Source: Methanoregulaceae archaeon (lineage in GTDB: Archaea > Halobacteriota > Methanomicrobia > Methanomicrobiales > Methanospirillaceae). From it: DNA of 64,000 nt. The stretch covers positions 62,001 through 126,000 of the forward strand of contig JACTVG010000005.1 of NCBI GenBank assembly GCA_015660965.1, written 5' to 3'. Positions 6,070 through 11,638 of the stretch are shown piece by piece. The position numbers were made by a program, and so were the translations under genes. Within the stretch, counting starts at the first letter, position 1; each line of letters starts with the position of its first letter. The notes below the pieces were generated by a model that made no database searches, was not told the origin of the DNA, and saw only the letters and a list, made by a program, of their open reading frames with translations.

Positions 6070-6148
6070 GCCCTTTAGTTTTCTCTAAGCGTATCAGAAT
6101 TCATATTCATAGGACGCGAAAGAATGTTTGGACAAAGTCGGAAGAAGG

Positions 6149-7375
6149 ATGCATCTGATACTTGATAACGCTCGGAAAGGGAAAATCACACCTCAAATGA
6201 TAGCTGTCGCTGATGCAGAAGGGATCAACCCAAACGTCCTATGCGAACGGATCGCTATGGGTAGTGTTGTCATTATGCAGCGAGGCAAACGCACGATCGG
6301 AATAGGAAAAGGACTTCGCACCAAGATCAATGTCAACCTCGGCACTTCAACCGGAAAGGTCAGTGTAATGGAAGAAATAAAGAAGGCTATGATCGCAGAG
6401 GAGTTTGGCGCAGATACCATCAGCGACCTTTCAATGGGTGGTGATATCAATGCAATCAGGGACGAAATATTTGCTTGCACCACACTTCCAATCACCACTG
6501 TACCGGTCTATCAGACCGCTGCTGAGGTGGGTCTGCGAAAGATGACTGCTGATGATATCCTTGTAACGCTCCGAATGCAGGCGGAGCAGGGCATTAGCTC
6601 GTGTGTAATCCATTGTGTGAATCATACAATGCTGAACCAGTTGCGGTGGAAAAGAAGGATCCTAGGCATAGTCTCGAAAGGTGGCTCGATCACAAGTGCA
6701 TTTATGCTGATAAATAGGTGCGAAAACCCGTTTATTGAGTACTTTAATGAAGTCCTTTCCATTTGTAGGCGGTATGATATCGTCCTCTCGCTTGGAAATA
6801 CGGCACGAAGCGGTTGCATTCATGACCGGTGGGACAAGGTGCAACGCGAAGAGCTACGACAAAATGTCAGGTTAGCACACGATGCTCATGAAAAAGGTGT
6901 ACAGGTTATTATTGAAGGGACTGGAGGACACATCAGGATAGACAGGATTGCTCGCTACGTGAATTATTATAAAAAACAATCAAAGTTCCCTCTCTTTGTG
7001 GCTGGCCCGTTGCCGACCGACATTGCGCTCGGGTATGATCATATTGCGGGATGCTCAGGGGCGAGCATTGCGGCTTCTGCAGGCGCCGATTACCTCTGTT
7101 ATATCACACCTGCCGAACACCTCGGGCTGCCGTCGCCAGATGCAGTAAAGCAAGGGCTTATCGCTTTCAGAATTGCAGCACATATTGGTGACACCGTCAA
7201 GAACCACAGGGACGATGATGACCAGAAAATTGCCTTAATGAGGGCGGGCCTCGATCGCGAGGGGCAGATACGATGTGCTCTTGACCCGACACGGGCACGG
7301 GAACTCTGTGATGGTGAATTAGAGTGCACGATGTGTGGGGACTTCTGTGCTATTAAGATTATGCGGGAGTTTTGA
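6149..7375 (+). CDS. thiC: Phosphomethylpyrimidine synthase ThiC
   Basis: About 408 residues. The radical-SAM enzyme rearranges aminoimidazole ribotide to HMP phosphate, the pyrimidine half of thiamine. Characteristic stretches are NVNLGTS, ADTISDLSMGGDI, PITTVPVYQTA and the C-terminal cluster motif CTMCGDFC, which is C-X2-C-X3-C, one residue tighter than the C-X2-C-X4-C of E. coli ThiC. The frame is open to a TTG at 6128 (7 more codons). I prefer ATG 6149 because the protein then begins like other archaeal ThiC sequences (M-L-I), but its purine-rich GGAAGAAGG abuts the ATG unusually closely. It is alone, divergent from mdh-polB, with a 240-bp gap after it. Confidence 0.93.
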   Translation: MHLILDNARKGKITPQMIAVADAEGINPNVLCERIAMGSVVIMQRGKRTIGIGKGLRTKINVNLGTSTGKVSVMEEIKKAMIAEEFGADTISDLSMGGDINAIRDEIFACTTLPITTVPVYQTAAEVGLRKMTADDILVTLRMQAEQGISSCVIHCVNHTMLNQLRWKRRILGIVSKGGSITSAFMLINRCENPFIEYFNEVLSICRRYDIVLSLGNTARSGCIHDRWDKVQREELRQNVRLAHDAHEKGVQVIIEGTGGHIRIDRIARYVNYYKKQSKFPLFVAGPLPTDIALGYDHIAGCSGASIAASAGADYLCYITPAEHLGLPSPDAVKQGLIAFRIAAHIGDTVKNHRDDDDQKIALMRAGLDREGQIRCALDPTRARELCDGELECTMCGDFCAIKIMREF

Positions 7376-7617
7376 GCGTATCAGTCTGAACTTCCATAAT
7401 CTTGGTTATCCAGGTAACATTTCCAATCATTGCAAGATCTTCAAGTTTATCTTTTCTGGTGTGTGAGTTGGTGTGGTAATTGTTATGCTCCTGGTGCCTA
7501 GAAAACGTACAGTTTATAATAAAACCACCAAAATTGTATTCTTAACATTCTGCTAAAGATCAACATGACGTATTAAGAGTCAACACCCTTATTTACCTCA
7601 ACTACAACGTTGATTTG

Positions 7618-9150
7618 ATGGACTTAGCATTCAATTTGAAAGAGATTGAAGAACGCATAGGTAAGCTCTCATCTGTACAGAAAATCCTGCTTGGAACTGA
7701 TGGGTCTGTTACACAGCTACTTGAGGCAATCACGGGGAATCCTGTTGCTGTCGAAACTCGTTTACAGGAAATTGTTAAGGCAGATGCTACAATTGCTGAT
7801 TGTCTTGAAACAAATAGAGACGACCCTTTAAATTATAGAATCGTCGATCTTAAGGATACCAAAACTGGAGAGGTTTTGATTCATGCAATATCTTATACGC
7901 CAATCGCACGCCTCTCTCCAAACTTCAAAGACGACTTAATGAAGGCAGATATCCCTATCGGCAAGATAATTCAGCACCACAATATTGAAGCACGGCGGGA
8001 GATTCTTAATGCTAGAGTATTCAACGCGAACGAAGATATGAGTAGAATCTTTTCGATCTGCCGGAACGAACCTCTTCTTTCCAGACAGTATAAGATCATC
8101 CATAATGATAAGCCACTTATCTTTATTGAAGAACAATTCCCTTACAATAAATTCCTCGATGAACAAAGAGTAATAGTTGAAACGCCATCACGAATTCATG
8201 TTACGCTAATCGATATGCATGGAGGTTTAGGAAGGGTTGACGGAGGAGTAGGACTCACCCTTAATGAACCTAGTATTCTCCTTGAAGTAAAACGAAGCTC
8301 AGAACTCGAAGTACATGGTTGTGACCCAAGAACCGAGGAACGTATTAAACATCTTACTAGACAAGTTTTGAAGAATATTCATATAGAAGGAAATGCATCG
8401 ATCACAGTTCGAACAATATTTCCCTCCCATATCGGTTTAGGTAGCGGATCACAATTGGCACTTGCCACTGCTCGTGCACTTTGTGAGCTCTTTGGGCGCA
8501 CAATGACCGTACCGGAGCTTGCCCAGCTTGTTGGTCGTGGCGGGACCTCTGGAATCGGGACTGCAGCATTTGCATCTGGGGGATTCATAATTGATGGTGG
8601 ACACCGTTTTGGATCTAAAAGTGAAAAGTCTGATTTCAGACCTTCATCAGCCTCGCGAGGTGTTAAACCACCACCAGTGATTGTGCGTTACGATTTCCCT
8701 TCGGATTGGCGTATCTTACTCGCGATTCCCAACTTACCTACAGGAGCGAGTGGGAACCACGAATTCGATATTTTCCAGCAAAATTGTCCAATTCCAGTTG
8801 ATGAAGTAAGACAACTATGCCATGAAGTGCTAATGCGAATGCTTCCTGCAATTATTGAACATGACATCGACCTATTTGGATCGTCGATCAATGCGATCCA
8901 AAATATTGGGTTCAAAAAGGTTGAACACAATCATCAATCAAAGCAGATTTCCAAACTGCTTGAGGCAATGCGGGAGGCTGGAGCAGCAGGTGCGGGAATG
9001 AGTTCGTTTGGACCAACTCTCTATGCAATTGGAGACACAGATATGAAAAGTATTGAACGTACAGCTCAGTCCTTTATGCAAAATGAGAATGGGGGGACAA
9101 CACTCATCACCTCAGTTCGCAATAGTGGGGCATCGGTCAGAGTTACTTGA
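7618..9150 (+). CDS. mptG: Fusion of chorismate-lyase-like DUF98 domain and MptG (RFA-P synthase)
   Basis: 510 residues in two parts. Residues ~1-175 match the DUF98/chorismate pyruvate-lyase-like family: LLGTDGSVTQLLEAI, the NYRIVDL segment with the Arg expected to bind substrate, and ADIPIGKIIQHHNIEARREI. Residues ~188-510 are a GHMP-superfamily MptG (beta-ribofuranosyl-aminobenzene/hydroxybenzene 5'-phosphate synthase): TPSRIHVTLIDMHGGLGRVD, the GHMP loop PSHIGLGSGSQLALATAR and a C-terminal GAAGAGMSSFGPTLY. Together they could make 4-hydroxybenzoate from chorismate and couple it to PRPP, the first committed step of tetrahydromethanopterin synthesis. Start is ATG 7618, preceded directly by a TTG. 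A possible TATA (CCTTATTTACC, ~7586) would give a nearly leaderless mRNA. MptG alone is usually about 320 residues. Confidence 0.88.
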   Translation: MDLAFNLKEIEERIGKLSSVQKILLGTDGSVTQLLEAITGNPVAVETRLQEIVKADATIADCLETNRDDPLNYRIVDLKDTKTGEVLIHAISYTPIARLSPNFKDDLMKADIPIGKIIQHHNIEARREILNARVFNANEDMSRIFSICRNEPLLSRQYKIIHNDKPLIFIEEQFPYNKFLDEQRVIVETPSRIHVTLIDMHGGLGRVDGGVGLTLNEPSILLEVKRSSELEVHGCDPRTEERIKHLTRQVLKNIHIEGNASITVRTIFPSHIGLGSGSQLALATARALCELFGRTMTVPELAQLVGRGGTSGIGTAAFASGGFIIDGGHRFGSKSEKSDFRPSSASRGVKPPPVIVRYDFPSDWRILLAIPNLPTGASGNHEFDIFQQNCPIPVDEVRQLCHEVLMRMLPAIIEHDIDLFGSSINAIQNIGFKKVEHNHQSKQISKLLEAMREAGAAGAGMSSFGPTLYAIGDTDMKSIERTAQSFMQNENGGTTLITSVRNSGASVRVT

Positions 9151-9718: not shown

Positions 9719-10543
9719 ATGGTAAATGCATATCTTGATATTGGAATTCAAAGCCGGATGAACCGGATAATCAATTCGAAAGATAATCGGGTAGTGATGC
9801 TTGCGATAGACCATCCCTATTTCCAGGGGCCGACAACGGGCTTGCGCAACATGAGTAATACAATAACAACACTCCTTCCCTATTGCGATTGCCTGATGAC
9901 GACACGCGGGGCAGTGCGGAGCAATATTGCGCCCGAAGATGTCGGGTCAAAACCCATCATGTTACGTGTTACAGGGGGAAATAGCGTTTTATTCGATGAG
10001 TTAAGTGATGAAAAGCTCACGGTTACGATTAAAGAGGCCATTCGAATGGATGCGGCCGGTGTCGCGGTCAGTGTGTATATAGGCTCTGCCAACCAGCAAC
10101 AGACTATTATAAATCTCACTGAAATGATCAATCACGCCGACGAATACGGAATTCCCGTGTTGGCAGTAACCGCCGTGGGGAAAAACATGGCCCGGAATTT
10201 GCGCTATTTATCGCTTGCATCCCGTATTTGCCAGGATGCCGGGGCCCGGATTATCAAGACCTATTATTGTGAGGAATTTTCAAAATTGGTTGACGCGGTT
10301 GCTCCAACTCCTGTCGTGGTTGCAGGAGGGAAATATTCAAGTCCTCCTGACGCGCTTCAAATGGCCTACAACTCTGTTCAGGCGGGTGCAGTGGGAGTTG
10401 ATTTCGGGCGAAATATTTTCCAGGATGACAATCCTATCGGCATGATCAAAGGGATTTGTGCAATTGTCCATGAAAATCATACGGTAAAGGAAGCCCTGGA
10501 TATCTACAATGCATATTTACCCGATGCATGCAAGCTCGACTAA
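9719..10543 (+). CDS. LsrF/DeoC-type class I aldolase or thiolase
   Basis: 274 residues. Strong resemblance to E. coli LsrF (3-hydroxy-5-phosphonooxypentane-2,4-dione thiolase): MLAIDHPYFQGPTTGL near the N-terminus, TTRGAVRS, VYIGSANQQ, and GARIIKTYYCEEF, whose Lys is the Schiff-base residue of the family. C-terminal GAVGVDFGRNIFQ is the phosphate-binding loop. Relatives in archaea include fructose-bisphosphate aldolase and the ADTH synthase (AroA'), so the true substrate is open; similarity by eye is closest to LsrF. No other lsr genes are near. A TATA-like TTTTTATACAG lies at ~9676-9686. It is followed after 42 bases by an alcohol dehydrogenase, suggesting a two-enzyme pathway. Confidence 0.82.
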   Translation: MVNAYLDIGIQSRMNRIINSKDNRVVMLAIDHPYFQGPTTGLRNMSNTITTLLPYCDCLMTTRGAVRSNIAPEDVGSKPIMLRVTGGNSVLFDELSDEKLTVTIKEAIRMDAAGVAVSVYIGSANQQQTIINLTEMINHADEYGIPVLAVTAVGKNMARNLRYLSLASRICQDAGARIIKTYYCEEFSKLVDAVAPTPVVVAGGKYSSPPDALQMAYNSVQAGAVGVDFGRNIFQDDNPIGMIKGICAIVHENHTVKEALDIYNAYLPDACKLD

Positions 10544-10565: not shown

Positions 10566-10585
10566 TACTTTCCACAGTGAACACA

Positions 10586-11638
10586 ATGAAAGCAGCGGTC
10601 TATTATAAGAACAGTGACATTCGCACCGAGGATGTTGAAGATCCAACAGTTGGACCAAGAGAAATTAAAGTCAAAATCATGGCGTGCGGAGTGTGCGGGT
10701 CGGATGTCATGGAATGGTACCGGATTAAGCGTGCGGGAAGGCCCGGTGGAATTGGAGCCTTTGGACATGAATGCACAGGAATCATTGCAGAAGTCGGTTC
10801 CAGCGTAGATCCGAAATGGAACGTGGGAGACCGGGTCGTGGTCACCCATCATGTCGCATGTAACACGTGTAACGCGTGTATACGCGGGCATACGACCGCA
10901 TGTGACACGCTGCAAAAAACTAAATTTAAAAATGCGTATGGGGCGTTTGCAGAATATGTGGTGTTGCCCGAGATCAACGTGGATCGGGGTATGTTACGCC
11001 TTCCCGAATCGGTTTCTTTTGATGCGGGAACCTTTGTTGAACCCCTTGGATGTGTGTTGCGTGGGCAGCAATGGGCCCCGACCTCAGATGGCCGATCAGT
11101 CTTGATCATTGGCGCCGGGATAACCGGATTGTTGCATATTCAGGTGGCCCGGTTGAATAGTGCGGGATTTATTGCGGTTTCCGATATTAATCCCGATCGA
11201 TTGGAGCTCGCCCAACAATTCGGCGCTGATGCAACCATTTTGGCAACTGAAGATGTTCCCAAAAAGTTTAAAGAATTCAATGGCGGATTGGGCGCAGACA
11301 CCGTCATTATGACCGCACCGGTTCCCGTTTGTGTGAAACAGTCACTTGACGCAGTCGGACCCGGGGGTACGATCTTATTTTTTGCCCCCACAAATCCTGA
11401 AATCCAATCCGAAATCAGTCTCTGGAATCTGTGGCAAAAAGAGATTACGATTACCCATTCATATGCTGCCGATTTCCATAATCTTTCAACGGCCCTGAAA
11501 TGGATTCAGTATAATAGAATCAATGTGACAGATATGATAACCCATGTGTTTCCATTACAAGAAACGGTTCAAGGTTTTCTCTTGACTGCCCAACCGCGGG
11601 ATGGGAGCCTTAAAGTTATCATTCATCCACAGGAATAA
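10586..11638 (+). CDS. Zinc-dependent alcohol/polyol dehydrogenase (MDR family)
   Basis: 350 residues. The medium-chain dehydrogenase pattern is complete: catalytic zinc site ACGVCGSD, GHECTG and FVEPLGC; structural zinc site CNTCNACIRGHTTACD; Rossmann loop IIGAGITGLLHIQVA. It is closest in type to threonine, sorbitol or similar polyol dehydrogenases, and the acidic residue after strand beta-2 (SDINPDRLE) suggests NAD+ rather than NADP+. The substrate is unknown; the neighbouring LsrF-like aldolase suggests a small phosphorylated or sugar-like ketone or alcohol. I use ATG 10586, giving MKAAVYY as in the family; a GTG at 10577 is in frame. The gene ends before a T6 run. Probably expressed with, but also independently of, the aldolase. 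Confidence 0.88.
   Translation: MKAAVYYKNSDIRTEDVEDPTVGPREIKVKIMACGVCGSDVMEWYRIKRAGRPGGIGAFGHECTGIIAEVGSSVDPKWNVGDRVVVTHHVACNTCNACIRGHTTACDTLQKTKFKNAYGAFAEYVVLPEINVDRGMLRLPESVSFDAGTFVEPLGCVLRGQQWAPTSDGRSVLIIGAGITGLLHIQVARLNSAGFIAVSDINPDRLELAQQFGADATILATEDVPKKFKEFNGGLGADTVIMTAPVPVCVKQSLDAVGPGGTILFFAPTNPEIQSEISLWNLWQKEITITHSYAADFHNLSTALKWIQYNRINVTDMITHVFPLQETVQGFLLTAQPRDGSLKVIIHPQE

Follow-up and report, generated by a model that had tools for sequence, protein, structure and literature searches.

The window analysed here, a stretch of 64,000 nucleotides from a Methanoregulaceae archaeon, contains a gene in which a chorismate lyase-like domain is fused to MptG (beta-RFAP synthase), and it raises the question of which aromatic acid MptG accepts when the aryl part of methanopterin is made. 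A route through 4-hydroxybenzoate, in which an amino group later replaces the phenol, reportedly goes back to White 2011, and support for this route is said to rest on that study. The acceptor used in vivo is debated, and the enzymology of MptG has employed p-aminobenzoate (pABA) as the acceptor in vitro (PMC6787355). Tetrahydromethanopterin is a carbon carrier, and the locus described here apparently provides one gene for both making and using 4-hydroxybenzoate.

The gene forms a single open frame without internal stop and encodes 511 or 510 amino acids, depending on the start codon (Table 1). In a Pfam search, residues 26-177 of the window protein matched PF01947 (DUF98) at E 6.9e-27, with a score of 94.7 bits where the cut-off is 22, and in an NCBIfam search residues 187-507 matched the beta-RFAP synthase equivalog NF040726 at 413.1 bits, against a cut-off of 328. 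The first-pass annotation had read the protein as an N-terminal DUF98 domain followed by MptG, and both assignments stand. The two matches are separated by nine residues, and the Pfam models GHMP_kinases_N and GHMP_kinases_C fall on residues 249-323 and 409-480. Among PDB sequences, the nearest solved structure for the lyase part is 2nwi (over residues 18-182), which we take to be an Archaeoglobus protein; for the MptG part it is ForT (6yqq, over residues 186-473). ForT, from formycin biosynthesis, is a PRPP-binding relative of the MptG family that has no lyase domain and presumably uses another acceptor. The window protein scored below threshold with the cyanobacterial chorismate lyase model NF037993 (NCBIfam, 37.1 bits against a cut-off of 175), which places its lyase domain, as far as profile scores can tell, in a related subfamily and not in the same one. 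An AlphaFold2 prediction made from three sequences had a mean pLDDT of 37.

Table 1. Features of the fused gene, in window coordinates
Feature	Position	Strand	Basis or remark
Whole fused gene, chorismate lyase-like domain and MptG	7615..9150, stop included	+	start TTG 7615 or ATG 7618
DUF98 / Rv2949c-like chorismate pyruvate-lyase domain (PF01947)	7690..8145	+	Pfam; PDB 2nwi E 3e-39
MptG (beta-RFAP synthase) domain, GHMP fold	8173..9135	+	NF040726; PDB 6yqq (ForT-PRPP) E 5.8e-36
Codon of R74 (numbering from ATG 7618), counterpart of UbiC Arg76	7837..7839	+	profile alignment
Codon of E172, counterpart of UbiC Glu155	8131..8133	+	profile alignment
Codon of D199, counterpart of MTH0830 D19	8212..8214	+	motif and 7-residue spacing
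Codon of R206, counterpart of MTH0830 R26 (substrate binding)	8233..8235	+	motif and 7-residue spacing

We compared the locus to other genomes of the order. The same fusion is present, at 66% identity, on two Methanoregulaceae contigs (L006 and L007), one of which belongs to a Methanoregula MAG and the other to a Methanoregulaceae MAG, in keeping with a place of the window's genome in this family. Across 149 genomes of the order, DUF98 was found in 109 and MptG above its cut-off in 111, and in 105 of the 109 DUF98 genomes (105/149 overall) both matches lie on one contig, on one strand and in one open frame; included in this count are genes that are incomplete at contig ends or carry a later frameshift (G057, G065, G102, G145 and G131). 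As the one-frame fusion is shared by both contigs and by these 105 genomes, it is neither a chance event nor an assembly artefact. In the remaining four DUF98 genomes, the gene is cut by a contig end (G086, G127), the frame is broken between the two parts (G121), or, in the single-contig genome G107, a free-standing DUF98 frame of 179 amino acids (L067:5040-5576) stops three residues after the site equivalent to E172, which is occupied by Lys. No MptG is found near this frame, and canonical MptG is absent from the G107 genome; the frame looks like a decaying relict of the fusion. Two DUF98 matches were seen only in G057, G065 and G102, where a single gene is cut by contig ends, and no second DUF98 is present in the genome of the window (G000; 2.43 Mb, 99.9% complete). 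The first-pass annotation had asked whether genomes with the fusion lack a free-standing DUF98 gene; such a gene is absent from the window's genome and from the fusion genomes of the order. Canonical MptG occurs alone in seven genomes, all from genus g24, and 33 of the 149 genomes contain neither part. Comparison with four other fusion loci (L006, L007, L085 and L086) showed no conservation of the genes directly flanking the fused one, and L086 has in common with the window only a transporter-like gene pair located some kilobases off. In the window, the neighbours are a ThiC-like protein (6128-7375), a DhnA-type aldolase (9719-10543) scoring above the cut-off of NF006081 (LsrF-like) and a zinc alcohol dehydrogenase (10577-11638), none of which lies beside the fusion in any of the four other loci.

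In a set of 391 genomes from the phylum, which includes part of the order, DUF98 is found in 216 genomes and an MptG-family match at E <= 1e-40 in 359. Split at E 1e-75, the latter fall into 256 canonical and 103 weak cases. DUF98 is accompanied by canonical MptG in 214 of its 216 genomes (Fisher p 1e-63, relatedness ignored), the two exceptions being G086, with its contig end, and G107, with its broken relict; DUF98 is found in none of the 103 genomes with weak MptG-like matches only. Conversely, 42 of the 256 canonical MptG genomes have no DUF98, and MptG can thus work without this domain. Neither is present in 133 of the 391 genomes. Outside the order, direct inspection showed the fusion in 12 f21 genomes and in three of family f12, and all 20 DUF98 genomes of f21 have an open frame of at least 515 amino acids at that place. 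In f7, DUF98 directly follows mptG on the same strand in all three regions read, and the same holds for one of three regions in f10 (G285, not G177 or G241), while in most other families read a free-standing DUF98 gene is located apart from mptG. The fusion in f21 and f12, the adjacency in f7 and f10 and the 214/216 co-occurrence together link the DUF98 and MptG genes. The first-pass annotation had inferred such a Rosetta-stone link from the fused gene; adjacency in other families and co-occurrence carry it beyond that case.

The residues on which a lyase and an MptG activity would depend are conserved. R74 and E172 are invariant in all 55 aligned fused proteins, and again in all 33 rows of an alignment termed A2, which combines fused and free DUF98 proteins from fifteen families (the free ones from f7, f8, f9, f10, f18, f25, f28, f32 and f33, with the G107 relict left out). 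When A2 is aligned to E. coli UbiC using hhalign, R74 falls on Arg76 and E172 on Glu155 (UbiC numbers count without the first Met) in a weak match of E 0.0045; in a smaller hhalign comparison, built from fused proteins, the G107 relict and 2nwi, R74 is located two residues off Arg76, again in a weak match (E 0.0046). A PDB sequence search with the DUF98 profile found 2nwi and not UbiC, the window protein gave no Pfam match to the UbiC model PF04345 at E values up to 1, and UbiC did not match PF01947 in a reverse profile check. The two proteins thus belong to different Pfam families without cross-matches, but the counterparts of Arg76 and Glu155 are in register. In UbiC, these are buried side chains that hold the 4-hydroxybenzoate product (PMC4865297). 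The Arg and Glu that the first-pass annotation named as binding chorismate are present in the N-terminal domain. In the MptG part, the D199 position is Asp in 54 of the 55 fused proteins and Glu in one, and R206 is kept in all 55. Alanine variants of the corresponding D19 and R26 in MTH0830 are inactive, and the R26K exchange increases the pABA KM roughly tenfold (PMC6787355). In 361 pairwise comparisons whose dS lies within 0.1-1.5 for each part, the median dN/dS is 0.29 (0.05-0.76) for the lyase part and 0.27 (0.07-0.42) for the MptG part, which suggests purifying selection on both.

We investigated which of the two aromatic acids the genome of the window could supply. UbiC is absent from it, and its single chorismate-binding enzyme (PF00425) scores 544 against an archaeal TrpE cut-off of 512 and below all PabB cut-offs; there is no recognised PabB in this genome. 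Since the sole PF00425 enzyme is a TrpE by curated cut-offs, the known aminodeoxychorismate (ADC) synthase for pABA is, on this classification, missing. Nine of 11 other genomes tested likewise have one PF00425 match; in G040 one gene is found in two pieces, and G024, from genus g24, is without any PF00425 enzyme. The classification into TrpE and PabB covers two proteins, that of the window's genome and that of G001, which is nearest to TrpE and below its cut-off (495 against 512). Because the known aminodeoxychorismate way is missing and MptG is joined to a chorismate lyase domain, the native acceptor of MptG is likely to be 4-hydroxybenzoate rather than pABA. The enzyme from M. thermautotrophicus binds pABA poorly, with a KM of 3.9 mM at 50 C and a KD of about 1 mM by ITC (PMC6787355). 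Endogenous pABA could still be made without PabB, as a title cited in PMC8305020 reports, for Methanococcus maripaludis, an early step in a novel pathway leading to aromatic amino acids and to pABA. The view of the first-pass annotation that the fusion lends genetic support to the 4-hydroxybenzoate route has good support at the sequence level.

We propose that the gene encodes a bifunctional enzyme converting chorismate to 4-hydroxybenzoate and then to the C-riboside of the methanopterin aryl part, and assign this reading a probability of roughly 0.84. The N-terminal domain would remove pyruvate from chorismate to yield 4-hydroxybenzoate, which the abutting MptG domain would join to PRPP, releasing CO2 and PPi. 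The resulting C-riboside would become the aryl part of methanopterin, with the phenol converted to the aniline later. UbiC reportedly releases its product poorly (a title cited in PMC4865297), and a fused consumer could relieve this retention by passing on a product that would otherwise be held tightly by the chorismate lyase. The analysis establishes the two domains with their key residues, purifying selection on each, and their spread and co-inheritance, whereas the enzymatic activities, the nature of the intermediate and the hand-on of the product are inferred.

Pyruvate elimination is chemically identical for 4-amino-4-deoxychorismate, and an N-terminal domain acting on this compound would deliver p-aminobenzoate to an MptG domain of a type that accepts it in vitro (PMC6787355). 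In that case the fused gene would be evidence for the classical pABA pathway. However, the window's genome is without a recognised ADC synthase and the substrate would therefore be missing, which makes this reading very unlikely. We consider it slightly less probable still that the N-terminal domain is a UTRA-like small-molecule sensor for an aromatic acid, which would regulate the MptG part and have no lyase activity. UTRA (PF07702) is indeed the second Pfam match of the window protein, weak and below cut-off (14.7 bits against 23.8, E 0.027), and GntR/UTRA-type regulators are found among the next, weak PDB matches of the DUF98 profile, so that the folds look related. Yet PF01947 scores 80 bits above UTRA, the active-site Arg and Glu do not vary among the fused proteins or their free-standing relatives, and a sensor would leave 4-hydroxybenzoate without a source, there being no other DUF98 in the fusion genomes and no UbiC in the window's genome.

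The lack of conserved direct neighbours and the separate location of free-standing DUF98 in most other families read would also fit a genuine lyase domain whose fusion only equalises the dose of two independent enzymes, with most 4-hydroxybenzoate going elsewhere. This is the least likely of the alternatives in our judgement, as DUF98 practically never occurs without MptG, which identifies MptG as its partner in the phylum. To our knowledge, methanogens make no ubiquinone, which again speaks against such a use of 4-hydroxybenzoate.

The 33 genomes of the order that have neither DUF98 nor canonical MptG come from five families and 14 genera; completeness reaches 95% or more in 22 of them, and nine consist of a single contig each (G001, G007, G017, G025, G031, G032, G036, G040 and G050). 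TIGR00284 (DHPS-like), which we take to join the pterin to the aryl-riboside, is kept in 32 of the 33. All nine single-contig genomes retain Mtd, the H4MPT-dependent dehydrogenase, and UbiC is absent from all nine. A divergent MptG-family protein below cut-off is found in nearly all of the 33, G022 and G104 having no MptG-family match at all. The retention of TIGR00284 and Mtd without DUF98 and MptG suggests either that these methanogens import the aryl-riboside or some later piece, or that MptG is replaced by a different enzyme. More tentatively, and with considerable doubt, the fusion could be regarded as the entry module of the methanopterin aryl branch, in which the intermediate would be handed over without release and which might be lost in one step, the aryl-riboside or a later methanopterin piece then being obtained from neighbours. 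If this were true, the aryl half of the C1 carrier of methanogens would be shared between cells much as a vitamin is. The comparison brings to light methanogens that apparently depend on an external supply for part of this carrier.

In a tree of MptG, 37 fused rows lie on one side of a branch with a support of 64, and the order together with f21 is supported at 96; in the lyase tree the fused rows are mixed, with low support (trees from 61/93 MptG and 66/98 DUF98 sequences, fused rows thinned by hand). A single origin of the fusion is thus possible. The solo MptG of genus g24 (L077-L083) is found on a long branch outside the fused clade of the MptG tree, and its descent within the order is not rejected by an AU test (p 0.40). 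No lyase remnant was found upstream of these genes, which may have been either gained from elsewhere or left by loss of the lyase domain.

Both domains belong to known families with known reactions, and what seems new is their combination in one protein. Free-standing DUF98/Rv2949c-like proteins, such as 2nwi and mycobacterial Rv2949c (the latter known here from the Pfam name only), have the same domain and the same invariant residues, but are separate genes of about 155-220 amino acids, whereas here the domain forms the N-terminal third of a polypeptide with MptG. The MptG proteins MTH0830, AF_2089 and MJ1427 share NF040726 and the D19/R26 counterparts with the fused MptG, whereas the free-standing MptG of other families occupies frames of about 315-370 amino acids without a lyase domain. 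The fusion is unmentioned in the open-access literature searched, and subscription papers, including White 2011, may mention it. The widespread fusion to a lyase domain provides independent genetic evidence for 4-hydroxybenzoate, whose place in the synthesis of this methanogenic cofactor is debated; it also supplies a candidate chorismate lyase for many methanogens and offers a single protein for testing the acceptor of MptG.

The window's genome encodes, in addition to the fused MptG, a divergent MptG-like GHMP protein (C42:196979-197902; L084:5830-6918), which we rejected as a real MptG at 95.6 bits against the cut-off of 328. Similar MptG-like matches below cut-off are present in many genomes of the order. 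A control search also found MptG-like proteins in Haloferax volcanii, where HVO_2628 has been judged unlikely to catalyse the step (PMC8305020). In six genomes of f10 (G213, G252, G270, G278, G289 and G301), the DUF98 profile match crosses one in-frame TGA or TAA, which is perhaps located just past the true gene end. The f8 genera g79 and g90 (for example G403 and G268) contain 2-3 MptG-family genes per genome at E <= 1e-40, and these copies perhaps use different acceptors.
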